From: Pectobacterium colocasium
GTDB taxonomy: Bacteria; Pseudomonadota; Gammaproteobacteria; Enterobacterales; Enterobacteriaceae
Reading direction: 5' to 3'
Assembly (NCBI RefSeq): GCF_020181655.1
Contig: NZ_CP084032.1
Coordinates: 682,001 to 746,000 of the forward strand
Length of the DNA: 64,000 nucleotides
Of the stretch, positions 20,132 to 42,620 are shown piece after piece. A program made the position numbers and the translations under genes. The notes beneath the pieces are model-generated. The model ran no database searches, was not told the DNA's origin, and saw nothing but the letters and a program-made list of their open reading frames with translations. Each line of letters opens with the position of its first letter. Position 1 is the stretch's first letter.

Positions 20132-21148
20132 TTACAGGCGCACCAACTGCTTGCCGAAGTGTTTACTGTCTAATAAGTCGATAAAGGCTTGAGGCGCATT
20201 CTCTATTCCCTCAATAATGTTCTCTCGATATTTTAATCGCCCTTTCTCAACGGCATCGAGTAGCCAAATGTCCGCTTCTGCGTAGTCTTTGAACCACTCA
20301 GTGACGAGAAAAAATCGGCTCAGAGGGGCTTCGGGCAAAGAAGAGAAAAATGCCACCGGGCTTGAAGCATCAACATCATGCCCTTGATTATAGAGTGCCG
20401 CGCTGCCACAAACAGGAACTCTGGCACCTTCGTTAAGCAACCTGGCAACGAAGAGAGAAACTCTGCCACCAACATTTTCAAAATAGATGTCAATTCCGTT
20501 GGGACAAGCAGCTCGCAAGGCCTGATCTAAACCAGCTTCTTTATAATTAATACAAGTATCAAACCCAAGAGTCTCAACGACATAACGGCATTTTTCTTCG
20601 CTGCCCGCCAAGCCGACCACGCGACACCCTGCTTGTTTGCCTAGCTGTCCGACGGCTGAACCGACACCTCCTGATGCAGCGGATACCACCAACGTTTCTC
20701 CTGCTTTGGGTTTGGCTATTTTATTCAGGCCAAAATAAGCGGAACGTCCTGGTGTTCCTGCGGCCCCCAAAAAAATAGAAGGTGATAGAGCCGTCGGCAG
20801 TACGCGGTGTGTAATAAAATCCTGAGGCGTACCGACATAGTATTTCTGCCAGCCTGAAAAGGTAAATACGCAGTCTCCAACCTGAAATTTTGGATTTTTT
20901 GTTGCTACGATATTGCCTATTGTTTCCCCTTGAATAACCTCTCCGAGCTTGATAGTGCTAACAAAGGCCGTATTTCTACTGAGTCGAGCGCGCGTGTATT
21001 GGTCAATAGATAGCCACTTATTTTCAACTATGTATTCGCCGGGTTGTAACGCATTGATATGGCGTTCATCAAGCCTAAAGTGTTCTAACTGGGCTGGGCC
21101 ATCAGGATGGTGAGCGAGTACGATTAGTTTATTTGTTAACGGGTTCAT
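20132..21148 (-). CDS. MDR-family NADPH-dependent oxidoreductase (zinc-independent)
   Basis: 338 residues from the ATG at 21148, which follows AGGGA; an upstream ATG at 21169 would add seven residues. Medium-chain reductase fold: N-terminal GroES-like part with ENKWLSIDQYTRARLS, then the nucleotide-binding VVSAASGGVGSAVGQLGKQAGCR. It resembles the leukotriene-B4/prostaglandin reductase and CurA group, which reduce activated C=C bonds. Last gene of the minus-strand NRPS/PKS run, 47 nt after the membrane protein. A tailoring or trans-enoyl-reductase role is inference. No structural zinc cysteine cluster is evident. Confidence 0.82.
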   Translation of the reverse strand: MNPLTNKLIVLAHHPDGPAQLEHFRLDERHINALQPGEYIVENKWLSIDQYTRARLSRNTAFVSTIKLGEVIQGETIGNIVATKNPKFQVGDCVFTFSGWQKYYVGTPQDFITHRVLPTALSPSIFLGAAGTPGRSAYFGLNKIAKPKAGETLVVSAASGGVGSAVGQLGKQAGCRVVGLAGSEEKCRYVVETLGFDTCINYKEAGLDQALRAACPNGIDIYFENVGGRVSLFVARLLNEGARVPVCGSAALYNQGHDVDASSPVAFFSSLPEAPLSRFFLVTEWFKDYAEADIWLLDAVEKGRLKYRENIIEGIENAPQAFIDLLDSKHFGKQLVRL

Positions 21149-21195
21149 AATATTCCCTATATTCATCATTCATTACGCATGACTTGATGGCTGGT

Positions 21196-21822
21196 TCAGA
21201 CAGCGTCATCTTGCGCATGTGAGGACCAGCGATATTTTGGCCATTTGAAGCTGAAAATGACGAGCAACAATGTTAGAGGCCAACCGCTGATCAGGACGAG
21301 GGTATCCATTGGTAATCCAGGCCGGAGTGAAAGGGTATAAATGACGATGGCTTTTATCAGATAGGCCACAATCCAGACCAATGAGACTTCGTTCCATATT
21401 TTGGTGTACCGTGGGGTGCCATAGTGAGGAAGTGTTTTTAGTCTTGGCGTAGCTTGTTCCGCTAGTGTCTGTATGACTGGACGCCCGAGCATGCTGTAAA
21501 TGCTGAAGATAATCACGGTGGACATTGCGCCGCTGACGGATAAAAAGACGCTCTCCTGCCTGATATCAAACAGCATATACCCTTCCAAATAAAGATAATG
21601 GCTTAGGCCTGAAACCAAAATAAGGGCGATGATCGGCAAGTAGCCTTTCCACCGACTGATATATTGCAGGACACCAGAATAGATAGCTGTAATTAATAAT
21701 GCAGCTCCTGCCCCCCATTGCCAGAAAGCGATATTGTAAATAATAATTGGTAAGATAATGGTTAGGATGGCATCGCGTGATACCAGATATTGCCAAACGG
21801 TTAACGACGGTGTATCGCTCAT
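21196..21822 (-). CDS. Multi-span membrane protein, VC0807-like
   Basis: 208 residues with about five to six hydrophobic segments (around 14-32, 34-55, 58-80, 90-112, 145-165, 175-195) and a cytoplasmic-type C-terminus. It resembles the VC0807 family of small inner-membrane proteins of unknown function. GGAG lies just before the ATG. It sits 65 nt downstream of the TE-containing NRPS and before the reductase, so it may take part in export, immunity or lipid anchoring of the product; none of these is shown by the sequence. Confidence 0.7.
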   Translation of the reverse strand: MSDTPSLTVWQYLVSRDAILTIILPIIIYNIAFWQWGAGAALLITAIYSGVLQYISRWKGYLPIIALILVSGLSHYLYLEGYMLFDIRQESVFLSVSGAMSTVIIFSIYSMLGRPVIQTLAEQATPRLKTLPHYGTPRYTKIWNEVSLVWIVAYLIKAIVIYTLSLRPGLPMDTLVLISGWPLTLLLVIFSFKWPKYRWSSHAQDDAV

Positions 21823-21887
21823 TTGCTTCTCCTCGCTTATGTGATCAAACCGCCGTTAAACATTTGAAACCGCAGACGGCGGATGTG

Positions 21888-24800
21888 TTATCGCAATACG
21901 CGCTTTAGCTTCTCTGCTATGCGTGAAATATGCGGTGCGTTCATCATTGAGATATGATCGCCAGAAGCTGCCAGCACGGTCAGACATCCTTCAGTCAGGC
22001 GATGCCACCCTAACCCGGATTCGGGCAGGCGGATTCGCCCAGGTAAAATATCCTCCGCTTCGACGACCAGTAGGTTTCCAGGGTAAGGTTCGCTACGGTA
22101 GGTCTCTGCTGCGTAAATATGTGATTGTAAGATATTGAGAAAATCCTGAAATTCTTGTGGCCCAATCTCGTCAGGAACTAGCCCCACTCGCTTAAACTCT
22201 GCCAGAAAGCGTGTTGTGCGCTGCTCATTACTCATGCCTAGAAGCGACTTCTCTGAAAGATCGAAAGATGCACCGGTAAACAAAGCCACTTTATGCGCAA
22301 AGTACGCCAGACGTTCAGCCTCGCTCATGCCTGCTGAGCCGTCGATGTTGATCTCTGGTGCAGGTTGGTCCAACACTAATACCGTAGGCGTTATGCCTTT
22401 TTTCGCGAGCTGCTGCGCCATTTCAAAAGCGATAGTTGCGCCGAGAGACCATCCTCCGAGTACCAGACGAGAGCGATGAACGATGTCGCCAGCTTCTGAG
22501 AGGTAGAACGCGGCAAGCGTTTTGATATCGGCGTTATAAGGCTGGTTAACGCTGAAATCAGGCACTTGAATACCGTATATGGGGTAGCGCTCGCCCAATT
22601 CACGCGCCAGCGCGGAATAGCACAGCACGTTACCGCCAGCGGGGTGGATCAAAAGCAACGTGGGTTTATCTTCTGGCTGACCACGGTTGATTGTCACCCT
22701 TGCGGTTTGAGTCTGGGTGCCTTTTTCTTCAATCACACGCGCCAACTGGGCAATGCTGCTGTTCTCGAACAACTGCCCCAGAGACAGGGATGTCCCAAAA
22801 TGCTGATTAACGCTCAGGATGAGCTTTAATGCGCTGAGAGAATTCCCGCCAAGGATAAAGAAGCTCTCCTGCGTATCAATCGTCTCGCTTTGTAAAATGT
22901 CGCGATAAATTTCATGTAGGTCATGTTCACGCTGATTTTCTGGGGCATGGAATGCTACGCGCTTTTCTACTGAGGGCAGGGGTAACGCAGCATAATTTAT
23001 CTTACCGCTGGCGGTTAATGGCATCGCTTCTAGCCATACCCAGTGTTCTGGCTGCATATAGTCTGGCAGTTTTTTTTGCAGCGCCGTTTTAACTTTGGCC
23101 TGACTAGGTTCATCAATGCCGCACAGGTACGCGGTTAAGACCGTTTCCCCGTGGGGAAGCGTGTTTTGTTTAATCGCTACGTGAGTCGCATTAGCCACCT
23201 GTTGTAATGCCTGTTCGATCTCTGCCAGCTCAACGCGGTAGCCGCGTACTTTAACCTGGCGATCCAACCGTCCCATAAATTCAAGATTGCCGTCAGGCAG
23301 GAAACGGCCTTTGTCACCGCTGCGATAAAGCCGTTCGCCCTCAAGGTAAGGGTGAGGAATAAAGCGTGCGTTATTTTGATCTGGCAGGCCAATGTACCCT
23401 TCTGCGACATGCGAGCCGCCCAGATAAATTTCACCCGGTAAGCCAGTCGGAACGAGCTGCTGATAAGGATCGAGCAGCAGGACATGGCTATCGGTCAGAG
23501 GTTTCCCGATGGGTAAGTAATTACCGGCGATCGCGTTAAGATCTTCTGGCACCGGATAGGTAGTGACGCCGACCGTACATTCGGTTGGGCCATAATGATT
23601 GAGGATGCGGCAAGACGTTCGAAACTCTCGTACACGCTTGATGAGTGACAGAGGAACGCGTTCCCCACCGATAACCAGCAACTGACGAGGTAATAACGCT
23701 TCAGCCTGTGGTGACGTTAATAACGTCGCTAAATGCGACGGCGTGATCTTGATGCAATCTACCGGATAGCGCGCCAGATAAGCGAACAGCTCTTGTGGGG
23801 AGCGGAGTAATTCCGTGCTGATCACGTCCAACTGACCCTGGTGAATCAGTGCAGGAAACAGCACCGTGTGTGCTAAGTCCGTTGTGAAGGATGAAAACAT
23901 GCCGTAGCGGGCATCGGGCGGCAGGTTGAGCACGGGCTGAATAGCCTGACAGTAGTGGCTTAGCTGTGAGTGTTTGACCCGAACGCCCTTGGGTTTGCCG
24001 GTACTGCCCGAGGTATAAATGATGTAAGCCGGGCCATCCGTCACGGTTTGTGACTGAGCGGGGTTGCTTACTGGCATGGCGCTGCGGTTTTGTCTTACGT
24101 AGAGGCAGGGGAGCTTATCACCGGGCGCCTGTTCGTCGATGATGACGCAGCGGGCAGCTGAATTTTGCAGGATGAACTCAACATGCAGCGCAGGGAGATC
24201 GATATCGATTGGAACGTAGCATCCACCTGCTTTTAACACGGCCAGAATCGCGACGACGTAATACTCGCTTTTAGGCATGAACAGCGCGACACACTCCCCA
24301 TGAGCAATGCCGTCTTTCTGGAGCTGATGAGCCAGCTGGTTCGCTCGCTCATTGAGCTGAGCATAGCTGAATGTACGGCCTTCACAGCGAACCGCGATGG
24401 CATCGGGATGTTGTTGTACCTGTTGTTCAAACTGCCGATGAACCGCGGGCGGGAATGTGCTAGCGGCCGGCTGGCATTGTGCGATTGTCGCCCGACGCTC
24501 TTCGTCGCCTAACAGCGAAAGATCCCGCACGGTGAGCTGCGGTTGGTTAATTAAGGTCTCAAGCGTCGCTCGCAAGTCATTCAGCATGCGTCGGACAGTA
24601 TTGCTGGAAAATAACGCGCTGCTGTAGTTCATGGTGAACAGTAGGCCGTTGCTATCTTTATCTTCTTCTACCCATAAGTTGAGATCCAGTTTTGCAGTGC
24701 CGTAATCCACTTTTAACGGTTTATATTTGAACCCGCCATGGCTGCTGTGAAAATGGGGGAAGACCTGATACGTCAAGATTGCCTGGAAGATTGGATTGAT

Positions 24801-25964
24801 CTGGGGATTACGCACATAGGTAATCTCATCCAGAATATAGTTGAACGGCACATCCTGATATCTCAGAGTTTCTTCACATTCGACGCGCACGTCCTCAATC
24901 AGCGAAGCGATACTGGCATCAGGATCGATATCAAAGCGTAATGGTAGGGTGTTCATGAATAACCCCATCATATTTTGCGTGGCCGGTAAATTGCGGTTGG
25001 CAAACGGTGCGCCGATGATGATTTCCTGCTGTCCGCTATATTTATGCAGCAGGAGTTGGTATGCCGTGAGGATAACGTGGAATTGCGTTGCCTGATGCTG
25101 TGCCGCACAGGTTTGCAAACGCTGACAGAAAGAGGAGTCAAAGAATTGGCTGGTGATGCTGCCTGCGGTGCTCATTTTGGCTGGACGAGGGTAGTCTGTT
25201 GCCAGCTCTAACTGCCCCGTGATGCCATCCAACCTCTTAGCCCAATAGGACAGTCCTGTCTGGTATTCGCCCTCGCTATACCACCGATCTTCTGCCAGTG
25301 CGTAATCGGCGAACTGGAGCATTTTCTCGATAGGTAATGTCCCCCCTTGTAACAAACGGAAATAATTTTCCATCAGCATTTTGAAGAACACATTGACCGT
25401 CCACCCGTCGGAAATAATGTGATGAAAGGTCAGGAACAGGACATAATCATGCTGATGAATTTTGGCCATATGGAGATAAACCAAGGGGCCATTCTCCAGA
25501 TCAAAAACAATATTTCCTTTCACTTTGGCAGTTTCTGAAACGTATTTTTCAAGCTCTTCTTCGCTGAACGCGGAGATATCCTCGAAGCTAAACGGAAAAG
25601 ACATATCGTTGGCGATGTGTTGACACACATCGTTATCGACCAGCCGGAATGTTGTACGCAGAATGTCATGTTGTTGCATCAGATAGTCGAGCGTTTGCTG
25701 TACTCGCTGTGGCTCCATGTCGTGCTCGATCCTGCAGGCAAGCACATACGGATTATTATAAACCAGGCTATCGTCAAGGTATTGGGAGAGCATCCAGATA
25801 CGCTTCTGCGCGCTGGTCATGGGGAAATGGACTCTGCCTGGAGTGGCGTGCGGAGTAATGGTTTTACCTGAGGATGTATTGCTCGCTTTCTTCTTTTCTC
25901 TGGCCAGTTTTTTGAGTTCATCCAGGCTAAGCGAGGTCAGTTTTGCGGTGGGAAGCTGCGTCAT
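21888..25964 (-). CDS. Nonribosomal peptide synthetase, C-A(Asp)-T-TE
   Basis: 1358 residues in one terminating module. Residues 1-45 form a charged helical tail that may dock to the upstream PKS. Condensation domain ~45-480 with HHIISDG at 181-187. Adenylation domain ~505-1000 with YTSGSTGKPKG (650-660), NHYGPTE (789-795) and YRSGD (880-884). Specificity residues by alignment to GrsA-Phe: D696, L697, T700, K739, V764, G766, H790, V798, G799, K988, i.e. DLTKVGHVGK, one conservative change from the known aspartate code. Carrier Ser1042 in LGGNSL. Thioesterase from ~1100 with GWSLG (Ser1173) and a C-terminal catalytic His in SGDHIS. It receives the chain from the PKS and releases it. Confidence 0.93.
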   Translation of the reverse strand: MTQLPTAKLTSLSLDELKKLAREKKKASNTSSGKTITPHATPGRVHFPMTSAQKRIWMLSQYLDDSLVYNNPYVLACRIEHDMEPQRVQQTLDYLMQQHDILRTTFRLVDNDVCQHIANDMSFPFSFEDISAFSEEELEKYVSETAKVKGNIVFDLENGPLVYLHMAKIHQHDYVLFLTFHHIISDGWTVNVFFKMLMENYFRLLQGGTLPIEKMLQFADYALAEDRWYSEGEYQTGLSYWAKRLDGITGQLELATDYPRPAKMSTAGSITSQFFDSSFCQRLQTCAAQHQATQFHVILTAYQLLLHKYSGQQEIIIGAPFANRNLPATQNMMGLFMNTLPLRFDIDPDASIASLIEDVRVECEETLRYQDVPFNYILDEITYVRNPQINPIFQAILTYQVFPHFHSSHGGFKYKPLKVDYGTAKLDLNLWVEEDKDSNGLLFTMNYSSALFSSNTVRRMLNDLRATLETLINQPQLTVRDLSLLGDEERRATIAQCQPAASTFPPAVHRQFEQQVQQHPDAIAVRCEGRTFSYAQLNERANQLAHQLQKDGIAHGECVALFMPKSEYYVVAILAVLKAGGCYVPIDIDLPALHVEFILQNSAARCVIIDEQAPGDKLPCLYVRQNRSAMPVSNPAQSQTVTDGPAYIIYTSGSTGKPKGVRVKHSQLSHYCQAIQPVLNLPPDARYGMFSSFTTDLAHTVLFPALIHQGQLDVISTELLRSPQELFAYLARYPVDCIKITPSHLATLLTSPQAEALLPRQLLVIGGERVPLSLIKRVREFRTSCRILNHYGPTECTVGVTTYPVPEDLNAIAGNYLPIGKPLTDSHVLLLDPYQQLVPTGLPGEIYLGGSHVAEGYIGLPDQNNARFIPHPYLEGERLYRSGDKGRFLPDGNLEFMGRLDRQVKVRGYRVELAEIEQALQQVANATHVAIKQNTLPHGETVLTAYLCGIDEPSQAKVKTALQKKLPDYMQPEHWVWLEAMPLTASGKINYAALPLPSVEKRVAFHAPENQREHDLHEIYRDILQSETIDTQESFFILGGNSLSALKLILSVNQHFGTSLSLGQLFENSSIAQLARVIEEKGTQTQTARVTINRGQPEDKPTLLLIHPAGGNVLCYSALARELGERYPIYGIQVPDFSVNQPYNADIKTLAAFYLSEAGDIVHRSRLVLGGWSLGATIAFEMAQQLAKKGITPTVLVLDQPAPEINIDGSAGMSEAERLAYFAHKVALFTGASFDLSEKSLLGMSNEQRTTRFLAEFKRVGLVPDEIGPQEFQDFLNILQSHIYAAETYRSEPYPGNLLVVEAEDILPGRIRLPESGLGWHRLTEGCLTVLAASGDHISMMNAPHISRIAEKLKRVLR

Positions 25965-26043
25965 TATCGAGTCTCATTTTGTGATAGTCGGTTTTTTACA
26001 GTAGCGGCCGCCTTCGAGATACATTCCGAAGGCGGCCGTGCGC

Positions 26044-29000
26044 TTATTCCTGCAATAAGGTTTCCAGTTCAGTAAGGATCAGCGTTGCTAACCCTTGCAC
26101 GGTCTGGTTCTGGTAAAAGAGATCAACACGGATATCGATTTCAAAGATGCCCGAAACGGTAGATACAACCTGTACTGCCAGCAGCGAATTTCCGCCCAGT
26201 TCAGTAAAGCTATCGTTAACGCCGATACCCGAAATCCCCAGAATGGACTGCCAGACTTTGACGATCTCTTTCTCAATGTCATTTTCTGGTGCAACGTAAT
26301 CCACAGAAAGAGCGGGTCTGGCATATCCTTCCGTAGCATCGCTATCCTGCAAGATGAACTCAGGCGTTTCCTGCTCAGGGATCGACTCATAAATGAGCTG
26401 GTCCAGATCGCTGGTAACAACGACTAACTGTTCAAATTCCAGATGTGCGAGCTGGCGTTTTATTGCATCCAGCCCTTCTGGCAACAGAATGTCTTTATCT
26501 GCCAAATTCACTTTTACTGCGGCTTTCGCTGCTGTTGATGTGTTTTCGGATGTAGCGAGTTGGTTGCCCATCGTCATCTTCATCAGCGTGTAATTTTCCA
26601 GTACCAGCAGCGGAACGCCCTCTGGTGAAAGGAACGTGATATCCATGACGATGGCGTTATCCTGCGGCTGATAAGCCTGCTTGAGCCTGACGTGGACGTA
26701 ACACTCTTGCCCCAGTGGCGATAAGAAGGTCATCTTGCCATAGCTGATAGGCAGGAAATTTTCCTGTGTAATCAGCGCCAGACAGGATATTGCCGTGGCA
26801 TCAATCAGCGCAGGGTGGTATGGGTAGCGGGTCAGATCGTGCGTATAGTCGTTACTCAGCACCTTGTGGATCAGCCATTCGTTATGACCTTGAACGATCT
26901 CACGGTGGTTGTTCCAGCGCTGGCTGAACGACAGGAAATTTTCACCCGTGTTGGCATTGTCCAGCTCAGTGATAAACGGCGCGTAGGGAACCTTCGTGGT
27001 GCAGCGCTGTTTAATGGCATCAGTCGATAGTGGTGTAAGGTCAACCGTTGGCGCGCCGTGGGCGATTCCACCGAAGGCGTGCTCTTGCCATGCTAGTTCA
27101 AGTACACCTCGAGTCTTGAGGCTGAACTTATAGCCTTTCCCCTCTGACGTGATGAATAGCCTCATCTGTCGTGGCCAGGCGTCGGTATAGATAACGGGCT
27201 TAGTCAGCATCAGGTTTTTGACCTGAAGGCTTTCCTGAGGCTTAAAGCACGTCATGAACTCATGCAGCAGCGATAAGATCGTTGCTCCCACCAATGAGGG
27301 CTGTTTCGCAAGGCGGTGCTCATCAATAACCCAGTCGTTTACGGTGAGGTTGACCTGATAGATTTCCTGCATATTTTCACGTGCAATGAGCGTGAGTAAG
27401 TCCCCCGTGATTGCCTCAGCTACAGGCATTTTGCTGTTTTTCTTCTCTTCTAACTGTTTGTTCCAACGGGCAGCCATGCCGACATCGCCCCATTGTCCCC
27501 AATTTATTGATACCGTGCGGCCACGACGATGCTGGTTGCGATAATGTGCAAAGGCATCCATAAACGCGTTGCCAGAGCAGTAATCGATGCGGGCTTCATC
27601 GCCCACAATTGCGGTAATGGAGGAGAACAGAATAAAGAAGTCAGGCTGCTTGTCTTGCAGCAGCTCATCCAGAATGAGCGAACCTGCGACTTTAGGATCG
27701 AGCACGTTGGCGCAATCGGCGTCGCTCTTCAAAGGAATGATGCCGCCACCTGGTACACCCGCAGTATGGAACACCCCATCGATATGCGGGAATGTGGATA
27801 GCATGCTGCGCATTCCCTGATAGTCACAGACATCCACCGGTGCTAAATGCACTGCGTTGCCATGCGCTTCCAGACGTAAAATGCTTGCCAGTTTTTCACT
27901 GGTAGGATCATCGACAGGGTGCTGTTGGATCCAATTGTGCCATGCTTCACGCGGCGGTAGAGCGGAACGATATGTCAGAATTATCGTTGCGTTACTTGTT
28001 TCACTCAGATGATTGGCGACCAGTATTCCTAGGCCGCCAAGGCCACCAGTAATCAGGTAAACACCGTCATTTTTTATCTCAACAGGGTCGCCTATCGTGT
28101 CCTCTTCCAAATGCACGGCCTGATAACTTTCTTCCCAGCGCTGGTTTCCGCGGTAAGCCACCAGGTTGCCGTGTGTTGCGATATGGCTTTCTGCAATCAG
28201 ACAGTGGGCAAATTCATCAAGCTGTTCGGCGTTTTGTTTGAGATCGATATCCACCAGGTGGCATTGCACTTCAGGATATTCGTGATAGAACACGCGCGAA
28301 GGCCCGACCAGTAACGCATTCTCTGGGGAAGCGATGCGTTCCCCCATCACGCTGAACGTGTTGCTGGTGGCGAAGGTCACATGCAGATCGTCCAGTAAAT
28401 TCTCGTTCACCAGCGCCTGCTGGAGATAGAGGGCTGGGTAGAACGCGTTCAGCGGCGAGGAGAGATAAGTGTGCTCAAGCGGCTGGACCTGTTCCGCTGC
28501 CGTCAGGTTCCATAGGTACAGGATACGTGATGGGCGTAACCCTTGTTCTGTCAGGCTTTTCAGTAGCTGGACGTAGTCAGTGCGCGAGGATGCGTTGAGG
28601 GTGTATCGGCCTTCGGAAAGCGCTTCCTGATACTGTGTTCCCGGGCTGACGAAAAAGACCTTATGCCCGTCTTTTTCCAGCAATTGCTTTGCACGTTCGG
28701 CGATACCCAACGTATCCGTCAGGAGCAGCCAGCAGGTGTTCTCTGCTTCAACGCGTTTGCCCGCCATATATTTCGCTGGAATGGTTTTCTTCCAGGTCGG
28801 CATATAAAACCAATCGCCGATGTCCGCCTGTTTCCGCTTTTTAGCCTTAACGGATTGCTCACTTTGCGCATCAGAGCTGGCTGACGACAGCGCCGGCAGG
28901 GCGAAGCGTTTACGCTCGAAAGGATAGCCGGGCAGCGGGATGCGGCGACGGTGCTGTTCTGGATGATGCTGATGCCAGGGAACGTTTACGCCGCTTGCCC

Positions 29001-31545
29001 AAAGCGCGCCGAGCGTTGAGAGCAGATGCTCGCCGGATAACGCAACATCTTTTGCCGTGGGTAATGAAGCATAAATCAAGGCACCATCTTCTGCGCTGAA
29101 ATGCTGCTTGGCGGACGACTCCAGTGAACGCCCCGGTCCAACTTCAAGGAACACGAAGTCATGATGTTCGTCAGCCATCAGCGTTTTGAAGCCATGAGAG
29201 AACAGAACGGTGTTGCGAACGTGCTCAACCCAATAATCGCTGCTTTTAGCGATGTCTTCACTCAGCCATTCGCCGTTGACGGTCGAGACAATAGGGATTT
29301 TCGGCGCATGGAGCTTGATGCTGTCGATGACCTTTTTGAAGGCAGGCAGCATGGGTTCCATCATGTGTGAGTGGAACGCGTGTGAAGTATCCAGATGTTT
29401 GCAGAAGACATTGCTGTCTTCCAACTGCTGTTGGAAACGTGCGACATCGTTTGAAGCACCGGCGATGACGCAGAGTCCAGGGTAGTTAACCGCCGCAATT
29501 TCCAGCTTGCTGCCGTGAAGTTTGGCCTTCAAGCTCTCTTCATCGAGCAGAACAGCAAGCATATCCCCTGCGGGCAATGCCTGTACCATCTTGCCCCGCA
29601 GCGCCACGGCTTTCAGCGCATCTTCCAGTGAGAACACGCCGGAAAGACAGGCTGCCACGTATTCCCCCACGCTGTGCCCAATCATGACATCCGGCTGAAT
29701 GCCCCACGACATCCACAGTTTTGCCAGACTGTACTCCACCACGAACAGGGATGGCTGGGTAAACTGGGTTTCATTGATTCGGGACTCGGCGGTATCGTCG
29801 CTGTCCTGAAAAATAATTGACGTCAGATTGACGTCCAGAATCGGTTCCAGATAGTCACAGCATTGATCCATGCTCGCCCTGAAGACGTCGTAGGTGTCGT
29901 ACAGTTCACGCGCCATATTGACATACTGGTTGCCCTGCCCTGGGAACATAAACACGACGGATTTTTGGTTTTTCCCCTGCTGCGTCACCACCAGTGAAGG
30001 CTGATCCAGCTTGGCTAGCAGGGCATCGCGATCCTTCCCGATAATGGCTGTGCTGTGAGAGAACCTTTGTCTCCCTACCTGTAGGGTGTAGGCGATATCT
30101 GCCAGATTGGCATCGTCATGCGCACTGAGGTACTCACGCAGGCGATGTTTCATGTCTTCCAGCGCCGTGCGGCTTTTCGCGGAGAAAGGGAAAACCAGCA
30201 GATTGTCGTCATGAGTATCGCTAGCTTTTAGCGGTGGTGCTGCTTCCAGAATGATGCAGGCATTGGTGCCGCCGACGCCAAAAGAGTTCACCAGTGCGCG
30301 GTGCGGTGTTTCCGACGGTTCCAGTTCACTGAGTTCGGTATTCATGATGAACGGGCTGGTTTCGAACTCAATGTTAGGATTTGGCGATTCGAAATGGAGA
30401 GAGGCGGGTAACTTGCCGGTTTCCAGCGCCAGTGAGGCTTTGATGAGGCTGGCCATGCCAGATGCCGCGTCCGTATGGCCGATGTTGGTTTTCACCGAAC
30501 CCAGACGGCAATACTGGGTTTTGTCGGTATATTCCTGAAACGTCTGTGTGAGCGAGGTGAATTCAATAGGATCGCCTAGCGCCGTCGCGGTGCCGTGAGC
30601 TTCAACAAAGTTGATGGTAGCGGGATCAAGCTCCGCATTAGCGATCGCCTGTTTGGCAACGGCGATTTGTCCGCTGATGCTCGGTGCGGTAAAACCGGCT
30701 TTCAGGTTACCATCGTTATTCACTGCGCCGCCTTTCAGCACGGCGTAAATATGGTCGCCGTCGCGTACGGCGTCATTCAGACGTTTCAATAACACCACGC
30801 CAGCACCACGACTGAATACCGTACCGTTGGCTCGCGAGTCGAAGGCATAGCAACGGCCATCGGCGGATTCCATACCGCCTTGCATATAGGAGTAACCCCG
30901 GCGCTCTGGCGTATCCACGGAAACGCCGCCTGCGACGATCAGATCGCTTTCCCCATTCAGCAGGCTGTTCATACCCATCACGACGGCGACCATCGCAGTT
31001 GAACAAGCGGTTTGTACGTTAACACTTGGCCCTTTGAGGTTGAGCTTGTAAGACACTCGGGTCGTTACGTAATCTTTATCATTGTTGGTGACGACCGATG
31101 CGCCGCTGGCGTACTTCTGTACTTCAGGATGGGCATTTGCTTTACTCAAATGCCAGGCGGTTCCCGTTCCGCCGAATATACCCACTTTTCCAGGGTAGGT
31201 GGCAGGGACGTAGCCGGCATCTTCAAACGCGTGCCAGCAACATTCCAAAAAGACACGATGCTGTGGATCCATAATTTCGGCATCGCGGGGCGTAATATCA
31301 AAAAAATTAGCGTCAAAGTGCTGTGCGTTGCCCAAAATTCCCCGGCGGCGAATATAGTTGGGCGAGGCGATCATCTCTTCTTCAATGCCTGACTCCCTCA
31401 GTTCTTCTTCACTGAATGTGCTGATCGTCTCCACGCCGTCCAACAGGTTTTGCCAAAATATCGCGGTATCTTCTGCTCCGGGAAAGCGCGCCGACATGCC
31501 TACAATGGCAATATCCTTATCGCGGAACTGTTCTTGCTGTTTCAT
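26044..31545 (-). CDS. Type I polyketide synthase, KS-AT-KR-DH-ACP
   Basis: 1833 residues. Ketosynthase ~10-435 with Cys181 (TACSTA), His317 (EAHGTA) and His357 (NIGHTD). Acyltransferase ~530-830 with GHSVGEY (Ser625) and HAFH at 722-725, the malonyl-CoA signature. A structural reductase half spans ~915-1150; the active ketoreductase ~1155-1390 has TGGLGGLG, Ser1309 and Tyr1322. A PS-DH-like domain follows at ~1400-1660 with a candidate catalytic His1410 and Asp1582 in HPALIDA; the Gly of the usual HxxxGxxxxP motif is replaced. ACP ~1755-1830 with Ser1787 (LGGNSL). The order KR before DH is unusual. The ATG has GAGGT 7 nt upstream. Adds one reduced C2 unit between two amino-acid steps. Confidence 0.93.
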   Translation of the reverse strand: MKQQEQFRDKDIAIVGMSARFPGAEDTAIFWQNLLDGVETISTFSEEELRESGIEEEMIASPNYIRRRGILGNAQHFDANFFDITPRDAEIMDPQHRVFLECCWHAFEDAGYVPATYPGKVGIFGGTGTAWHLSKANAHPEVQKYASGASVVTNNDKDYVTTRVSYKLNLKGPSVNVQTACSTAMVAVVMGMNSLLNGESDLIVAGGVSVDTPERRGYSYMQGGMESADGRCYAFDSRANGTVFSRGAGVVLLKRLNDAVRDGDHIYAVLKGGAVNNDGNLKAGFTAPSISGQIAVAKQAIANAELDPATINFVEAHGTATALGDPIEFTSLTQTFQEYTDKTQYCRLGSVKTNIGHTDAASGMASLIKASLALETGKLPASLHFESPNPNIEFETSPFIMNTELSELEPSETPHRALVNSFGVGGTNACIILEAAPPLKASDTHDDNLLVFPFSAKSRTALEDMKHRLREYLSAHDDANLADIAYTLQVGRQRFSHSTAIIGKDRDALLAKLDQPSLVVTQQGKNQKSVVFMFPGQGNQYVNMARELYDTYDVFRASMDQCCDYLEPILDVNLTSIIFQDSDDTAESRINETQFTQPSLFVVEYSLAKLWMSWGIQPDVMIGHSVGEYVAACLSGVFSLEDALKAVALRGKMVQALPAGDMLAVLLDEESLKAKLHGSKLEIAAVNYPGLCVIAGASNDVARFQQQLEDSNVFCKHLDTSHAFHSHMMEPMLPAFKKVIDSIKLHAPKIPIVSTVNGEWLSEDIAKSSDYWVEHVRNTVLFSHGFKTLMADEHHDFVFLEVGPGRSLESSAKQHFSAEDGALIYASLPTAKDVALSGEHLLSTLGALWASGVNVPWHQHHPEQHRRRIPLPGYPFERKRFALPALSSASSDAQSEQSVKAKKRKQADIGDWFYMPTWKKTIPAKYMAGKRVEAENTCWLLLTDTLGIAERAKQLLEKDGHKVFFVSPGTQYQEALSEGRYTLNASSRTDYVQLLKSLTEQGLRPSRILYLWNLTAAEQVQPLEHTYLSSPLNAFYPALYLQQALVNENLLDDLHVTFATSNTFSVMGERIASPENALLVGPSRVFYHEYPEVQCHLVDIDLKQNAEQLDEFAHCLIAESHIATHGNLVAYRGNQRWEESYQAVHLEEDTIGDPVEIKNDGVYLITGGLGGLGILVANHLSETSNATIILTYRSALPPREAWHNWIQQHPVDDPTSEKLASILRLEAHGNAVHLAPVDVCDYQGMRSMLSTFPHIDGVFHTAGVPGGGIIPLKSDADCANVLDPKVAGSLILDELLQDKQPDFFILFSSITAIVGDEARIDYCSGNAFMDAFAHYRNQHRRGRTVSINWGQWGDVGMAARWNKQLEEKKNSKMPVAEAITGDLLTLIARENMQEIYQVNLTVNDWVIDEHRLAKQPSLVGATILSLLHEFMTCFKPQESLQVKNLMLTKPVIYTDAWPRQMRLFITSEGKGYKFSLKTRGVLELAWQEHAFGGIAHGAPTVDLTPLSTDAIKQRCTTKVPYAPFITELDNANTGENFLSFSQRWNNHREIVQGHNEWLIHKVLSNDYTHDLTRYPYHPALIDATAISCLALITQENFLPISYGKMTFLSPLGQECYVHVRLKQAYQPQDNAIVMDITFLSPEGVPLLVLENYTLMKMTMGNQLATSENTSTAAKAAVKVNLADKDILLPEGLDAIKRQLAHLEFEQLVVVTSDLDQLIYESIPEQETPEFILQDSDATEGYARPALSVDYVAPENDIEKEIVKVWQSILGISGIGVNDSFTELGGNSLLAVQVVSTVSGIFEIDIRVDLFYQNQTVQGLATLILTELETLLQE

Positions 31546-31684: not shown

Positions 31685-31954
31685 TTACTTTTTGCTACCC
31701 GCGATTTCAGCAGTAATCTGGCTGATGATACTTTGCAGGCCAGATGCTGATGGATGTTGCAATGATGCTTTGATTGAAACAGGAATAGCAGGAACAGACT
31801 TCGTCCCCCAATATTTTCTGACATAAGGGAGGACTTTCTGGCCAATCGCATAATAGTTAGCGGGCTTGGATGAATTTTGGTGACTCAGTACAACTTTAAT
31901 TGCCGAAGCCACCTTCGCTTTTACTACTGCGGAATTCAATTTATTTGCAGACAT
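31685..31954 (-). CDS. Small basic protein of unknown function in the NRPS/PKS run
   Basis: 89 residues from the ATG at 31954, which has AGGTGG 7 nt upstream; a longer start at 31999 lacks a ribosome site. The product is Lys/Ser/Ala-rich (MSANKLNSAVVKAKVASAIK at the start; ISQITAEIAGSKK at the end), with no Cys, no TM segment and no signal peptide. I do not recognise it: it is not MbtH-like and has no carrier-protein Ser motif. Placed directly upstream of the PKS and in the same direction, it is probably part of the pathway. Confidence 0.6.
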   Translation of the reverse strand: MSANKLNSAVVKAKVASAIKVVLSHQNSSKPANYYAIGQKVLPYVRKYWGTKSVPAIPVSIKASLQHPSASGLQSIISQITAEIAGSKK

Positions 31955-32031: not shown

Positions 32032-33398
<1,367 letters not shown>

Positions 33399-33417: not shown

Positions 33418-33690
33418 TTACTTCTTGCTGCTTGATTTCCCAGCGTGTATTTCGCTAATACGCTTGCTTAGCATCTGTACCGTTGGGTATTGGAATAAAT
33501 CAACAATAGAGATCGGTGACTCCATTTTGTTTTTTATTTCCCGATAAACTTTGGACATAAGCAGAGAGTTTCCTCCTGCATCGAAGAAATTCTCTTGAAT
33601 AGAGACCTGCGGATTATTGAGTACGGTTCGCCAGATAGAAATAATATTTTTTTCTATCTCGGAAGGTAATATTGCTTTGTCGTTTGACAT
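33418..33690 (-). CDS. Free-standing peptidyl/acyl carrier protein
   Basis: 90 residues, the size of one carrier domain. The phosphopantetheine site is Ser42 in FFDAGGNSLLM. Helix-rich with a Lys-rich C-terminus. Ten nt separate it from the upstream A-domain gene, so the pair should act together: the adenylation protein loads this carrier. A phosphopantetheinyl transferase is not encoded in the window and must come from elsewhere. Followed by the IS110 insertion. Confidence 0.9.
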   Translation of the reverse strand: MSNDKAILPSEIEKNIISIWRTVLNNPQVSIQENFFDAGGNSLLMSKVYREIKNKMESPISIVDLFQYPTVQMLSKRISEIHAGKSSSKK

Positions 33691-33700
33691 TTTTTCACCA

Positions 33701-35212
33701 TTAGTTATTTACATAGGAACACAGTTTGGATTTATCAATTTTTCCATTGGGATGCGTGGGCATTTTTTCCAACGCGACGAAATGGGAAGGCACCATGAAG
33801 AAAGGCAGGATCTTGGCAAGGTGTGCTTTTATCTCCTGAATATCGATGCGCTTTTGATGCCGTAATACATAAAACGCGGAGAGCGATGGCGCTACGCTTT
33901 CCGGGCGCTTTTCGAGAATAACGGCGGCGTGGTTAATTTGTGGCAGCGCCTGCAAGTGCGTTTCTATTTCCGCCAGCTCAATACGGTGTCCGCGTAATTT
34001 AACCTGGCTGTCTATTCGTCCAATGAACTCCAGCACGCCATCGGCTCGTTGCTTAACCCAGTCACCGGTTCTATACATTTTCTGCCCAGACTGATGGCTA
34101 AACGGATCATCGACAAATCGTTCCTGCGTCAGCTTTTCTGCATGCAGGTAGCCTTTGGCCAGAATATCTCCTGCCAGATAGAGCTCGCCGCTTTCCCCGG
34201 CACCGACAGGCTGCTGCGCGTCGTCCAGTACATAAGCGATGGCGTGCGGGATTGGTCTGCCAATCGGGGCAATTTTCTCCTCTGCTCCCGGCTGGCAGTG
34301 CCAGTGGCAGGCAAATATTGTGGCCTCGGTTGGGCCGTAGAGGTTGTGGATTTTCCTCGGATATTGCAGGGAAAGATCGTTAACCAGTGTTTGATCGAGC
34401 GCCTCGCCGCCAGAAAAGATATGGCATAGGGATGTGCAGCGGGATAGCACGTGTGCATCGACAATAACGCGCAGCGCCGTCGGTACGAATTGAGCAACCG
34501 TGACCTGATGGCGGCACATAAATTCTGCCAGCAATAGCGGATCGTACTTGGCGTCTTCGGTGATCACCGCACAGCTGGCTCCGGCGATCAGCGGCCAGAA
34601 AATTTCCCACACCGAGACGTCAAAACTGAACGTGGATTGATTAAGTACAACGTCTTCGTGATGCAGTCCGAAGGCGCTTTGCATCCATGCCAGATAATTG
34701 ATCACCGTGCGATGACTGACCATAACACCCTTTGGCGTTCCGGTAGAACCGGAGGTATACATCACGTAGCACAGGTCTTCCTCGCTGACGGTGGGAAGCG
34801 CTGGGGTAGCCTGTGTGCTCAGATCGAGCTGGTTGATGTCAACGATCTCACGGTGGCCCGGCGCTAGCTTAAGCGCGTGTTCATCGTCAGTGATCACCAG
34901 ACGTGCATCGGCATGATTGACCATATAATCCAGACGCTCGTGTGGATAGTAAGGATCAAGCGGTAAATAGCACGCACCGGTTTTCAATACGCCGAGCAGG
35001 CTGACGATCAGATTCGGGCTTTTATTCAAATAAATACCGACAACATCCTTCGGCTTTACGCCCCGCAGCAATAGCTCGCTCGCCATGGTGTTTGCACGTT
35101 GTTCCAATTGCCGATAGGTCAATATTTCGGTATCGCTTCTCAGGGCGATGGCGTCCGGCGTCTGATGCCACTGCTGTTCAAATAAGGTATGGAGCACTCT
35201 TGCCGATGCCAT
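33701..35212 (-). CDS. Free-standing amino-acid adenylation protein
   Basis: 503 residues forming one complete A domain: YTSGSTGTPKG (152-162), NLYGPTEATIF (290-300), YRTGDW, and the A10 lysine in HPNGKIDKSKL. Specificity residues by alignment to GrsA-Phe read D198, V199, W202, Q241, F266, G268, L291, I299, F300, Lys, i.e. DVWQFGLIFK. D198 indicates an alpha-amino acid. The code has features I recall for Gln and Gly activators but no clean match, so the substrate is left open. GAGG precedes the ATG. Partner of the carrier protein 10 nt downstream. Confidence 0.92.
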   Translation of the reverse strand: MASARVLHTLFEQQWHQTPDAIALRSDTEILTYRQLEQRANTMASELLLRGVKPKDVVGIYLNKSPNLIVSLLGVLKTGACYLPLDPYYPHERLDYMVNHADARLVITDDEHALKLAPGHREIVDINQLDLSTQATPALPTVSEEDLCYVMYTSGSTGTPKGVMVSHRTVINYLAWMQSAFGLHHEDVVLNQSTFSFDVSVWEIFWPLIAGASCAVITEDAKYDPLLLAEFMCRHQVTVAQFVPTALRVIVDAHVLSRCTSLCHIFSGGEALDQTLVNDLSLQYPRKIHNLYGPTEATIFACHWHCQPGAEEKIAPIGRPIPHAIAYVLDDAQQPVGAGESGELYLAGDILAKGYLHAEKLTQERFVDDPFSHQSGQKMYRTGDWVKQRADGVLEFIGRIDSQVKLRGHRIELAEIETHLQALPQINHAAVILEKRPESVAPSLSAFYVLRHQKRIDIQEIKAHLAKILPFFMVPSHFVALEKMPTHPNGKIDKSKLCSYVNN

Positions 35213-35313
35213 GATCTGATCCTCTGGTGATGCCAGGGGTCACGCCGGGCATCCTTTTACGCGTTATGCAGGTACGGCACACAGGTGCTATGCCGCTGAG
35301 TAATGTGCTGTGA

Positions 35314-35943
35314 TTATGATGATGCTTCTTGCTGCTCCGCAGATGCGGGTGGGGCTATGTTTTCTGCTGTCTGTAACACGTTTTCCCCTGCGGGAGTGCT
35401 GGGTCTGGTTGCGGCATCGGTCAGAAAATCGATAACACGCATGAGCACTTCAGGCGCGGGTTGGCGTTTTACCTGCGTGTGAATGCTGTATTTAGCGCGT
35501 GTATCTGTAGCCCGGGTTTGCGCCGACTTGTGTGAGACCCGACCGGCCATTTTGACCTTGAAAGGTCCCCACCCCAGTGCAGCGGCCAGATTGCCGTCTT
35601 CTCCGGTGTCATCAGATGACGATTCGCTCTGTGTCACTTCAAGTTCGAAGTCGATTGTCCCTTCTTCAATAGAAATAATCGGATGGGTAATGGCGGCAAT
35701 GAGCGGTATGCGCATCGTTTTTGTCACCGCGCCTTTTGCGACTCCGCTTTCATCAATAAGCGTTTCGTCGTAATCGAATTGGATAGCAACGGCTTTATTA
35801 TTCTGAATGCATACGGATAATAAAAAATCCGTATAGGCTTTGCTGGCTTGAACCTGTGCGTTAATCATTGCCTGTAAAGGCCCGCTAATCATATTTTCCA
35901 GTGGTAATGCATTAATAACCGAACCGATAAATTGCGAATCCAT
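35314..35943 (-). CDS. DUF2589-like protein (copy 1)
   Basis: 209 residues from the ATG at 35943, with GGAGG 5 nt upstream; the in-frame start four codons earlier is weaker. No signal peptide, TM helix or Cys-rich motif beyond one Cys. Features: N-terminal helix (SVINALPLENMISGPLQAMI, QASKAYTDFL), a beta-rich middle, the acidic stretch SESSSDDTGEDG, and the conserved end PAPEVLMRVIDFLTDA. The same layout occurs in the product at 40567. I assign it to the DUF2589 family from memory; function unknown. First gene of the minus-strand synthetase run, 101 nt before the A-domain gene. Confidence 0.65.
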   Translation of the reverse strand: MDSQFIGSVINALPLENMISGPLQAMINAQVQASKAYTDFLLSVCIQNNKAVAIQFDYDETLIDESGVAKGAVTKTMRIPLIAAITHPIISIEEGTIDFELEVTQSESSSDDTGEDGNLAAALGWGPFKVKMAGRVSHKSAQTRATDTRAKYSIHTQVKRQPAPEVLMRVIDFLTDAATRPSTPAGENVLQTAENIAPPASAEQQEASS

Positions 35944-35955
35944 CGGAACCTCCAA

Positions 35956-36268: not shown

Positions 36269-39200
36269 ATGATGAAGAATAGAAAAACGGTCTTTGAAAT
36301 TATCTCTGAATGGTCACTGAAAAGCCCCGATAAGACGGCGGTGGAATTTAACGGCGACAGCCTGAACTATCAACAAATAGAATCACGGTCACGCCTTCTG
36401 GCCGATTACCTTTTATCACACTACCCGAATAATAAACGTGGCAGAATTGCCGTCTATCTGGAGCCTGGGGTCATGATGCCGGTGGTCTTGCTGGCTATTT
36501 TAAAAGCCGGATATACCTATGTTCCGCTCTCACATTTTCACCCGTCAGAAAGAATCATTCAGATTCTTGATGACTCGTCGGCATTTTTACTTATTTCCAC
36601 GCGCTCGATGGTAAATAAAACGGCTATCGATAATGTTTTCTCCTCTACGCTCGTGTTAGAGGATATTCATTATCCCACTGAGCCGGCAGCCGTGCTGCCA
36701 TCCGTTTGTGAAAACGATCTCGCCTATATTCTCTATACCTCCGGCTCTACCGGGAAGCCAAAAGGGGTGGCCATTGAGCATCGAAATCTGAGTTATTATC
36801 TGAACTGGTTTAATGAGGATGTGTGGCCAGAGACGCGTGCGACGCTCCCTCTGACATCGTCACTCAGTTTTGCTGCCGCTGTGACACAGCTTTACGCCCC
36901 TTTATTACGTGGCGACACGCTGTTTATTTTGCCCGCCGATAGCTTGAATGAACCGGACGTTTTATTACGCTGGCACCAGCAGCATCCGGACGGCGCCATT
37001 TACTGTGTGCCGACCGTTTGGGATGAACTGCTGCGCTATCAGGCGACTTCTTCTCACGTGTGGGCGTTACCCAAAACCGTTTTTCTCTCTGGTGAACCTG
37101 TCTCTTTTGATTTAAAAGAGCGCACATTCCAGCAGATCCCGGATGTCAGGCTCTTTAATCTGTATGGCCCGACGGAAACGACGGCCAACTGCTCGTTTGC
37201 CGAATTGGTGCCGGGAAAAGAGGTGACGCTCGGTAAGGCTCTGCGTGGTAGCGAAATTCTGATCGTGGATGAGAATCTGTGTCCTGTGGCTGAAGGGGAA
37301 GAAGGGGAGATTTGCGCCTTCGGTGAAGGCGTCGCCCGTGGCTACATTAATCGCGACGAATTAACGCAACAGCGTTTCTTTACTCATGAGCGAGCCGGTA
37401 AAAGCGACTGGGGACACCGCACGGGCGATCTGGGAAAAAGGACGCCGGACGGGGAGATCGTCTATCTGGGGCGTATCGATCGCCAGATTAAGATTAATGG
37501 CATTCGTATTGAGCCCGAAGAGATCGAAATCGTGTTACGCCAGCATGGCGATATCGACAACGCGCTGGTGCGGCCGATTCAGGAAAACGGGCGTCAGCGT
37601 CTGGTGGCCTATCTGGTAAGCCGTAATCCATCGCTTGCCACGAACGATTTACGTCGCTTCTTGCAGGATAAATTGCCACGAGCGATGCATCCGTCCCATT
37701 TTATTATGCTGGAAACGCTGCCCAAGTTGCCTAACGGGAAATTGGATGTCAGCCGGCTGCCTGCGCCTTGTCCGCAGCGCCCTGAGTTGGGATATCCGGT
37801 TAAAACCGCAGGCAATGAGCTGGAACAGGAACTGACTGACATCTGGCAGGATGTGCTTGGTTTTCGTGAGCTCGGCGCCAACGATAACTTTTTTGATTTA
37901 GGGGGGGATTCGCTTCAGGCGATGAACGCCAGGCGACTGATTCGAAAACGACTGTTTAGCGACATCGATTATCCGTTGTTTTTCAACAACGCGACCCCTC
38001 ATCTGCTTGCTTTCATCGTCCCTTACTATGTTAACGATGACGAGCCCACGCTTGATGAGGGTAAAACGGATATCGAGGCGCTCACACCATCATCTCAGCA
38101 GCGTTATTTTCTGACGCTGGATCAGCTCAGTCCGGATCCGTCGGTCTACCAATTGGCTTTTCGCCTGACGATAGACGGTACACTGGATGAATCTGCGGTG
38201 GAATGGAGTCTTGGGCGTATTCTGGAAGGTAATCCGGTATTGAGGACGCGCTTCGATCTGGATCGTCTGCAATGCCTTGAGGGGGATTATCCTGTCGGGG
38301 CGATCCCGATTGAACGACTGACGGCTTTCTCTACCGGCGGGCTGGCGAATACGCTGAGCGACCAGCAACTGCTGGATCTGGTCAATACACCGGAGATGGA
38401 TTTAGAACATTCTCCGCTTATCTGTTTTCATCTGGTCTCGCTGGCGGCGCAACGGCATATTCTGCTGGGACGCGTGCACCATACCGTATTCGATCATGAC
38501 GCGATTGGCTTATTCTTCAATCAATTTATTGATTACATCCGCGCTTATAGCGCGGGCGATCGCAGCTATCGAATAGGCAGTGAAGAGCGCTATCTGCGCT
38601 ATCGTCAACAGCAGCGGCGTACTAAAGATCAGTGCTACCCAAGAGAGCGGCAGTTTTGGCTGGATAAAATGGAGGCTTACCTGGCTGCGGGTGCTGATGC
38701 GACGGCATTTCCTCTTAGTGAAAGCAAGGAGGGAGAAAATTATTGGTGTATTTTGTCTGATACGTTAACGCAGGCGATAAAGCACTATGCCCAGCAGCAT
38801 CGCACAACGCCATTTGTCTGCATGCTGACCGCTTTCAACCTGCTGCTCAAAACGACAAACTACCGTCATGTGCCCATCGGTATTCCGGTGTCGAACCGTA
38901 TGCTGGCGGAAAACGCCACGACGATAGGCTGTTTCGTGAATATGGTGACCTACTATGATGATTCGCCCACTCAGGAGTCTTTCAGCACGCTTTTGGCCCG
39001 TGGCCAGAATAAGATCCATGCCATTTTGGACAATCAGACATTGCCCTATGATGTGTTAATGGCCGATGTTCGCGCCAGAGGATGGTCTGATAAGCTGCGT
39101 TTCCCTGTCAGTTTTAACTATTTGACCGCTATGCCGCCGGCCGTACAGATCAATGAGACTGCATATCAGATCGCGGATATTGCTAATCATCAGGCTCGAC

Positions 39201-39367
39201 TGGATTTGACGCTCTCTGTTTATGACGATGACGCACTGACGCTGTGTTTTAATTATCAGCTGGCGGCGTTTAAAGCGGAAGATATTGCCACTCTGTCTCA
39301 TCAGTACCATCAAATTCTCATGGATATCGTACAGCCAAACGGGACGCCCTTGTACGGCAACCGGTAG
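36269..39367 (+). CDS. Nonribosomal peptide synthetase, A-T-C
   Basis: 1032 residues. Adenylation domain ~8-500 with YTSGSTGKPKG (156-166), NLYGPTE (297-303), HRTGDLG and K491 in PNGKLD. The residue matching GrsA Asp235, which binds the alpha-amino group, is Ala202 (SFAAAVT, 200-206), so the substrate is probably not an ordinary alpha-amino acid. Other code positions read A203, T206, Y245, F272, S274, L298, A306, N307. Carrier domain Ser548 in LGGDSL. Condensation domain ~605-1025 with HHTVFDH at 737-743 (the usual Gly is His). No thioesterase. Starts at ATG 36269; ATG 36272 has better spacing to AAGGA. As A-T-C it can initiate and pass its acyl group to a separate aminoacyl carrier. Confidence 0.93.
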   Translation: MMKNRKTVFEIISEWSLKSPDKTAVEFNGDSLNYQQIESRSRLLADYLLSHYPNNKRGRIAVYLEPGVMMPVVLLAILKAGYTYVPLSHFHPSERIIQILDDSSAFLLISTRSMVNKTAIDNVFSSTLVLEDIHYPTEPAAVLPSVCENDLAYILYTSGSTGKPKGVAIEHRNLSYYLNWFNEDVWPETRATLPLTSSLSFAAAVTQLYAPLLRGDTLFILPADSLNEPDVLLRWHQQHPDGAIYCVPTVWDELLRYQATSSHVWALPKTVFLSGEPVSFDLKERTFQQIPDVRLFNLYGPTETTANCSFAELVPGKEVTLGKALRGSEILIVDENLCPVAEGEEGEICAFGEGVARGYINRDELTQQRFFTHERAGKSDWGHRTGDLGKRTPDGEIVYLGRIDRQIKINGIRIEPEEIEIVLRQHGDIDNALVRPIQENGRQRLVAYLVSRNPSLATNDLRRFLQDKLPRAMHPSHFIMLETLPKLPNGKLDVSRLPAPCPQRPELGYPVKTAGNELEQELTDIWQDVLGFRELGANDNFFDLGGDSLQAMNARRLIRKRLFSDIDYPLFFNNATPHLLAFIVPYYVNDDEPTLDEGKTDIEALTPSSQQRYFLTLDQLSPDPSVYQLAFRLTIDGTLDESAVEWSLGRILEGNPVLRTRFDLDRLQCLEGDYPVGAIPIERLTAFSTGGLANTLSDQQLLDLVNTPEMDLEHSPLICFHLVSLAAQRHILLGRVHHTVFDHDAIGLFFNQFIDYIRAYSAGDRSYRIGSEERYLRYRQQQRRTKDQCYPRERQFWLDKMEAYLAAGADATAFPLSESKEGENYWCILSDTLTQAIKHYAQQHRTTPFVCMLTAFNLLLKTTNYRHVPIGIPVSNRMLAENATTIGCFVNMVTYYDDSPTQESFSTLLARGQNKIHAILDNQTLPYDVLMADVRARGWSDKLRFPVSFNYLTAMPPAVQINETAYQIADIANHQARLDLTLSVYDDDALTLCFNYQLAAFKAEDIATLSHQYHQILMDIVQPNGTPLYGNR

Positions 39368-42543: not shown

Positions 42544-42620
<77 letters not shown>

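Follow-up and report, generated by a model that had tools for sequence, protein, structure and literature searches.

A conserved, orphan hybrid NRPS-PKS assembly line in Pectobacterium, interleaved with a lysozyme- and DUF2589-encoding gene cassette

The 64,000-nucleotide stretch of Pectobacterium colocasium analysed here (the window; positions 682001-746000 of a single-contig 4.91-Mb genome) carries the genes of a hybrid nonribosomal peptide synthetase (NRPS) and polyketide synthase (PKS) assembly line. Our analysis indicates that this line is real, conserved and composed of known enzyme types, and that it is an orphan within the literature searched. No pump is encoded beside it, and in Pectobacterium and Brenneria its genes are interleaved with a cassette that comprises, in the window, a LuxR-type gene, DUF2589 gene 2, a lysozyme gene, a gene for a membrane protein with three hydrophobic segments (holin-like) and DUF2589 gene 1. 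On these grounds we take the product to be, in all probability, an interference metabolite whose synthesis accompanies that of the cassette proteins. The conserved locus is bounded by secG and tRNA-Leu (19983-20069) on one side and by tRNA-Met (42544-42620), rimP and nusA on the other. A preliminary description had located the genes and domains correctly, as open reading frames (ORFs) and Pfam agree, and its interval of 20132..39367 contains the core genes; it did not mention the IS110 transposase gene, the small ORF and DUF2589 gene 1 inside that interval, and it left out the linked genes at 39625-42211, with which the locus extends to 42211 (Table 1).

Pfam resolves the synthase proteins into C-A-T-TE, KS-AT-KR-DH-ACP (with DH after KR), a lone PP-binding domain, a lone A domain and A-T-C. 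The A, C, T and TE domains, together with KS, AT and ACP domains that keep their catalytic residues, identify the system as a hybrid of an NRPS with a cis-AT type I PKS; one part, the A C-terminal subdomain of the NRPS at 21888-25964, scores too low for Pfam (22.4, cut-off 24.5). The catalytic residues of the PKS (KS C181/H317/H357, AT S625/H725, KR Y1322/N1326, DH H1410/D1582 and ACP S1787) do not vary across an alignment of 32 proteins, which are the window protein and 31 chosen among 120 homologs listed, shorter relatives being left out. The genome has two matches to the phosphopantetheinyl transferase family PF01648, which count in favor of a working line. The core genes are under purifying selection, as shown by comparing the seven biosynthetic genes with their counterparts in P. 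aroidearum, P. carotovorum, P. peruviense and Brenneria alni: the ratio of nonsynonymous to synonymous substitution rates (dN/dS) is 0.015-0.151 in 27 of the 28 pairs; for the reductase against Brenneria the ratio was not computable, and dS against Brenneria is at least 1.4.

The substrate codes of the A domains are conserved too, although the A-T-C proteins of some lineages are only 34-36% identical to that of the window. The code of A1 is identical in 14 of 14 loci, that of A0 (AATYFSLAN in the window) follows the pattern A-A-[TSA]-Y-[FL]-S-L-A-N in all 14, and that of A2 (DLTKVGHVG) follows DLTK[VI]GH[VI]G in 13. Code positions were transferred by alignment, and the 14 loci are those in which the whole line is present, without the window; the partial locus L012, the broken L013 and the distant L014, L015 and L018 were left out of the count. 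In A domains such as that of GrsA, an Asp residue binds the amino group of the substrate. A0 lacks this residue and therefore probably takes a starter that has no alpha-amino group, which fits the acyl start proposed in the preliminary description. Its aspartate module is likewise borne out by A2, whose code agrees with the Asp code.

Orthologous clusters outside Pectobacterium and Brenneria bear on both the order of the line and the export of its product. In Xenorhabdus (L011/L017), Shewanella (L006/L016) and Prodigiosinella (L055), the A-T-C, A1-T1, PKS and C-A-T-TE genes are collinear on one strand, with A1-T1 as a single protein of ~600 residues. Together with the invariant codes, these collinear clusters and their A1-T1 fusion lend independent support to the linear order proposed earlier, in which each activity occurs once. 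They share four synthase proteins, their order, the A codes and the five-segment membrane protein with the window, but differ from it in having the fusion and an EmrB-type exporter, and in having no lysozyme cassette in the cluster. An EmrB-type exporter is present in all seven clusters outside Pectobacterium and Brenneria (342 bits in Xenorhabdus, cut-off 230), accompanied in six by an HlyD adaptor; in the seventh, L010, the contig ends first. The same search found neither protein in the window or in the stretches of L001, L002, L003, L004, L005, L007 and L009, and no exporter was seen at the partial locus L012. The PKS tree groups Pectobacterium with Brenneria (local support 1.000) and places this clade inside a set of lineages to which the exporter types also belong. 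Other leaves, whose gene context was unread, come from Vibrio, Marinomonas, Rosenbergiella, Celerinatantimonas, X. griffiniae and a Yersinia metagenome-assembled genome; a second P. aroidearum protein (79% identity) is also among the unread leaves. Beyond these, 369 sampled gammaproteobacterial genomes gave seven matches at 36-43% identity besides the window's own.

Among the clusters read, those without the exporter have the cassette. In the window, DUF2589 gene 1 shares the strand of A1 and stands 101 bases upstream of it, a position kept in seven Pectobacterium and Brenneria loci, and all 13 PKS-bearing Pectobacterium genomes also have the DUF2589 1 and lysozyme genes. DUF2589 was found in both Brenneria genomes and in one Shewanella genome, and was not found in the Prodigiosinella genome, in either Xenorhabdus genome or in three of the four Shewanella genomes. 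The cassette itself is a recurrent unit. We read 14 neighbourhoods of close DUF2589 homologs, 13 within the family outside Pectobacterium (two of them Brenneria) and one in Burkholderia stagnalis; they come from few genera and are not independent. A lysozyme gene adjoins DUF2589 in all 14 (those of L078 and L090 were found by tblastn), and a LuxR-type gene occurs in 13, L083 being cut by a contig end and the Burkholderia match being only 29% identical. Since 25 Pectobacterium genomes hold only 27 lysozyme matches (E up to 1e-20), chance adjacency to DUF2589 should be rare. A tie of DUF2589 in general to lysozyme was considered and dropped, as profile labels placed a lysozyme in two of 20 order-wide neighbourhoods.

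It could be argued that the line works but that the cassette is an independent antibacterial or envelope locus at a shared insertion hot spot, the product leaving by a pump encoded elsewhere. We regard this as a serious possibility, albeit one that we do not favor. Other genera have the cassette but no NRPS-PKS with it, as does Pectobacterium G015 at another site; the A-T-C gene and the cassette lie on opposite strands, their intergenic regions sharing no motif of 9-12 bases; and in nine Pectobacterium genomes the site holds neither cassette nor cluster. Against it stand the constant place of DUF2589 gene 1 upstream of A1, the finding that every intact cassette seen at the site in 25 Pectobacterium genomes is accompanied by a biosynthetic operon, and the absence of the exporter, among the clusters read, exactly where the cassette is present.

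It would also be tempting to regard the cassette (LuxR-type protein, paired DUF2589 proteins, endolysin and, in most cases, a holin-like protein) as a release device of general use that exchanges its cargo, present in Enterobacterales and at least one Burkholderia, and to suppose that programmed lysis of some cells frees the NRPS-PKS product. The Pectobacteriaceae cassette would then have captured biosynthetic cargo, namely the NRPS-PKS (in 13 of 25 Pectobacterium and in Brenneria) and, at the same site in two genomes, a thiazole/oxazole operon, and the line could have lost its EmrB/HlyD exporter because lysis now does its work. Gene content, exporter absence and linkage speak for this idea, which we nevertheless consider rather unlikely. 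If true, it would connect the making of a natural product with its release by lysis, account for the persistence of a cluster without its pump, and give DUF2589 its first role, as an undescribed component of a holin/endolysin-type release system serving small-molecule natural products.

Among known systems, the cassette can be compared with the type 10 secretion systems, such as ChiWXYZ of Serratia and YenLC of Y. entomophaga (PMC10847048). In the part of that account available to us, they resemble the window cassette in that an endolysin, a possible holin and a regulator stand beside cargo genes, and the window lysozyme, with its E-D-T triad and its matches to PF00959 and PHROG 7, has the features of their endolysin; the same part does not name the DUF2589 pair. 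The cassette differs from them in its weak holin call, in the lack of a recognised spanin, and in that its cargo would be a small-molecule biosynthetic operon (PMC10847048).

Several points count against release by lysis. The three-segment membrane protein matches no holin family of Pfam, PHROGs or NCBIfam; UniRef names at least two of its 27 homologs Holin, and its relative in G015 has two hydrophobic segments by the same measure. A match to it occurs in 11 of the 14 neighbourhoods, with none in L086, L087 and L090 and a fragment only in L078. No i-spanin or o-spanin was recognised in general Pfam and PHROGs scans of the window ORFs, which included no dedicated spanin search. The lysozyme gene carries an in-frame stop in G017 (P. 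peruviense L004 3261-3719, one stop) and also in the relic of G002. Moreover, small molecules seldom need lysis to leave the cell. As it concerns linkage rather than release, the constant adjacency of lysozyme to DUF2589 leaves the odds of lysis release unmoved. In further searches, the DUF2589 proteins, ~60% identical across 39 aligned sequences, gave a poor structure model (mean pLDDT 52.6, pTM 0.34), no match in 50,697 phage records and matches in four of 72,556 plasmid records, and PADLOC, which covers anti-phage defence, matched the LuxR-type gene to helix-turn-helix models and, marginally, gave one hit for the small protein.

Returning to the line and its probable interference metabolite, we infer the chemistry from domain order and codes. 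A0 would activate a carboxylic acid without an alpha-amino group and load it onto T0, C1 would join this acid to an amino acid loaded on T1 by A1, and KS-AT would add one malonyl unit. KR and probably DH would convert the keto group to an alkene, giving a vinylogous amino acid that C2 would couple to aspartate before TE releases the product; the reductase may reduce the double bond afterwards. Syrbactins such as syringolin and glidobactin come from lines of comparable logic, with an acyl start, an amino acid, a KR/DH malonyl extension to a vinylogous amino acid, a last amino acid and TE. Judged by its domains and the DH dyad, the window line appears to share with that family the addition of one malonyl unit to an aminoacyl carrier, followed by processing through KR and DH. 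The terminal Lys-type module that closes the 12-membered lactam of syrbactins is not found: by its code, the module is Asp-type in the window and in 13 of 14 loci. The window line differs further in its A0-T0 loading, its split proteins and its placement of KR before DH. The locus defines an orphan compound family common to plant pathogens, insect symbionts and marine bacteria, with a predicted scaffold that could be searched for by mass spectrometry.

Several observations weigh against an intact line with this product and role. The exporter search covered locus stretches, so that a pump elsewhere in the genome is possible. Neither the A0 nor the A1 code has a verifiable substrate match: the nearest PDB chain to A1, linear gramicidin synthase, is not decisive for the substrate, and glycine or alanine is a guess from its code. 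The A2 code of Shewanella L016, DSVKVGHVA, departs from the Asp code, and both Xenorhabdus operons lack the reductase. The DH domain raises a more specific doubt. Its HxxxGxxxxP motif is degenerate across the PKS family outside the His/Asp dyad, it is placed after KR, and its N-terminal half scores too low for Pfam (21.4, cut-off 27). If DH were inactive, the product would keep a beta-hydroxy group, in a statine-like unit, instead of the alkene; the dyad H1410/D1582 being identical in all 32 proteins, and the operon encoding an enone/alkenal-type reductase, we think this unlikely.

The distribution in Pectobacterium points in the same adverse direction. Among 25 species genomes, 13 have the PKS, which disposes of the idea that the cluster is unique to the strain of the window. 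Its frame is open in 11 of these, broken in G020 and fragmented in G021 (strain PL152); G002 keeps relics of the cluster, G006 and G007 have another operon in its place, and nine genomes have no cassette at the site. In six of the nine (G001, G005, G011, G014, G015, G016) secG and rimP flank the cassette-free site, which retains a reductase remnant in G015 and a fragment 39% like the PKS in G016; in G009, G010 and G019 the fetched stretch ended before rimP. Twenty of the 25 sites were examined directly, and G000, G003, G012, G018 and G023 rest on the window and on genome-wide gene searches. The broken copies, relics and nine cassette-free sites suggest that the product is dispensable for many lineages.

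In the window strain itself, an IS110 element sits between the carrier gene and a small ORF. It may be polar on the PKS and NRPS genes or lower their expression. Three further copies in the genome are 99-100% identical; on its left, 49 bases that include the end of the carrier gene align to P. aroidearum and P. carotovorum, on its right the flank aligns to P. aroidearum as far as the small ORF, and no IS110 lies at the corresponding place in the seven Pectobacterium and Brenneria loci read. That this strain has a silent or decaying line, in which the element uncouples A1-T1 from the PKS-NRPS so that no product is made, would accord with this placement and with the broken or relic copies of other genomes (G020, PL152 and G002), but is improbable given that every ORF of the line is open, that the catalytic residues are intact and that the element lies in intergenic DNA in operon orientation. 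The earlier term "apparently complete" needs qualifying for the inserted element and for the exporter of relatives that is missing from the locus.

The literature searched, which took in neither MIBiG nor most subscription papers, holds no description of the line or its product, in keeping with the earlier claim that it is undescribed; the parts seen of PMC10991766, PMC9125672, PMC9765074 and PMC10847048 contain none either. DUF2589 is named by a single paper of the literature searched. A gene set found only in virulent P. brasiliense isolates includes nonribosomal peptide synthetases, which ones being unspecified in the part of the account available (PMC8045196). As described in the accessible part of PMC9765074, solanimycin of Dickeya is likewise the product of a hybrid NRPS/PKS of a soft-rot relative; its cluster encodes three NRPSs and a PKS of the trans-AT kind along with a P450 and an exporter of the MATE type (PMC9765074). 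The window line has a cis-AT PKS and no exporter in the locus, and solanimycin was rejected as its product; A1 scores 414 bits against the SolG model, far under the cut-off of 2200. Of the soft-rot products as which the preliminary description did not recognise the line (carbapenem, oocydin, zeamine, andrimid and solanimycin), the comparison covered solanimycin.

Table 1. Features of the locus in window coordinates
Feature	Position	Strand	Basis or remark
NADPH-dependent enone/alkenal reductase, medium-chain dehydrogenase type (curcumin-reductase-like), possible tailoring enzyme	20132..21169	-	PF16884/PF00107; PDB 5zxn
Membrane protein, five hydrophobic segments	21196..21822	-	Kept in exporter-type clusters too
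NRPS C-A(Asp-type)-T-TE	21888..25964	-	Pfam, A code
PKS KS-AT-KR-DH-ACP	26044..31545	-	Pfam, catalytic residues
Small basic protein, 89 aa	31685..31954	-	Between carrier and PKS in Pectobacterium and Brenneria
IS110 family transposase of inserted element	32248..33294	-	Family match
Free carrier T1 (lone PP-binding)	33418..33690	-	Pfam; one protein with A1 in relatives
Free adenylation enzyme A1, code DVWQFGLIF	33701..35212	-	Pfam, code
DUF2589 protein 1, directly upstream of A1	35314..35946	-	PF11655, 80.8 bits
NRPS A0-T0-C1, loading and first condensation	36269..39367	+	Pfam, A code
Membrane protein, three hydrophobic segments, possible holin	39625..40056	-	Segments; UniRef names
Phage-type lysozyme (endolysin), E20-D29-T35, without hydrophobic leader	40113..40574	-	PF00959, 149.9 bits; PHROG 7
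DUF2589 protein 2	40567..41163	-	PF11655, 55 bits
LuxR/NarL-type regulator	41597..42211	+	PF00196

Some family matches in the window fall short of their cut-offs: the reductase scores 337 bits against NF058644 (cut-off 440), the five-segment membrane protein matches the VC0807 family weakly and under cut-off, and every NCBIfam response-regulator model that matches the LuxR-type gene does so under cut-off. The reductase and this membrane protein (20132-21822) are 96-97% identical to those of P. zantedeschiae and 79-89% identical to other Pectobacterium loci, whereas the PKS is 90% identical to that of P. zantedeschiae, a contrast that makes recombination at the reductase end of the gene run likely. 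The small basic protein (31685-31954) has the highest dN/dS among the tested genes in three of four comparisons (range 0.11-0.38) and a divergent allele in P. zantedeschiae and G020. It was not found in the exporter-type clusters L006, L008, L010, L011, L016 and L017, and its structure model, built on nine sequences, is poor (mean pLDDT 53.7, pTM 0.32).

The cassette borders other cargo elsewhere. At the same site in G006 and G007, a thiazole/oxazole-modified peptide operon replaces the NRPS-PKS beside it (L039 2128-8623, L040 6639-13157); this operon encodes enzymes of the SagB, SagC and SagD types, a C70-like peptidase and a precursor-like ORF whose end is rich in Cys. In L039, SagD scores 291 bits (cut-off 219), SagB 149 (78.4) and the SagC-like protein 83 (below 187.7), enzymes that mark a thiazole/oxazole-modified microcin operon, an alternative cargo not present in the window; the family search used the G007 copy only, and L040 was judged by matching ORF sizes. 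In Pectobacterium G015 (L042 6329-10833), the cassette occupies a different site, next to genes for two secreted proteins, one RNase-A-like, the other barnase-like by eye and unmatched in Pfam, PHROGs and NCBIfam. With a profile built on the G015 protein, an RNase-A-like secreted ORF was labelled in L076, L077, L079, L081 and L084. The Pfam matches are weak (L076 22.6 bits, L042 20.8, cut-off 27), and NCBIfam gave nothing for the ORF of L042. An ORF in each of L082, L084, L085 and L086 carries the motif CG[GA]Y[AS]L and is cysteine-peptidase-like by eye; Pfam was empty in the three tested (L082, L084, L086); no cargo was recognised in L071 and L087. The cassette extends into Betaproteobacteria, since a Burkholderia stagnalis replicon (L090 9108-12009) has paired DUF2589 genes next to a lysozyme gene and a weak LuxR match. 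In Pectobacterium G005 (L044 8105-12703), two DUF2589 genes and a lysozyme gene adjoin a gene for an M20 peptidase/LuxR-type domain fusion, and ORFs beside more distant DUF2589 pairs (L060 7491-8063, L062 6809-7405) have a start that is pesticin-muramidase-like by eye.

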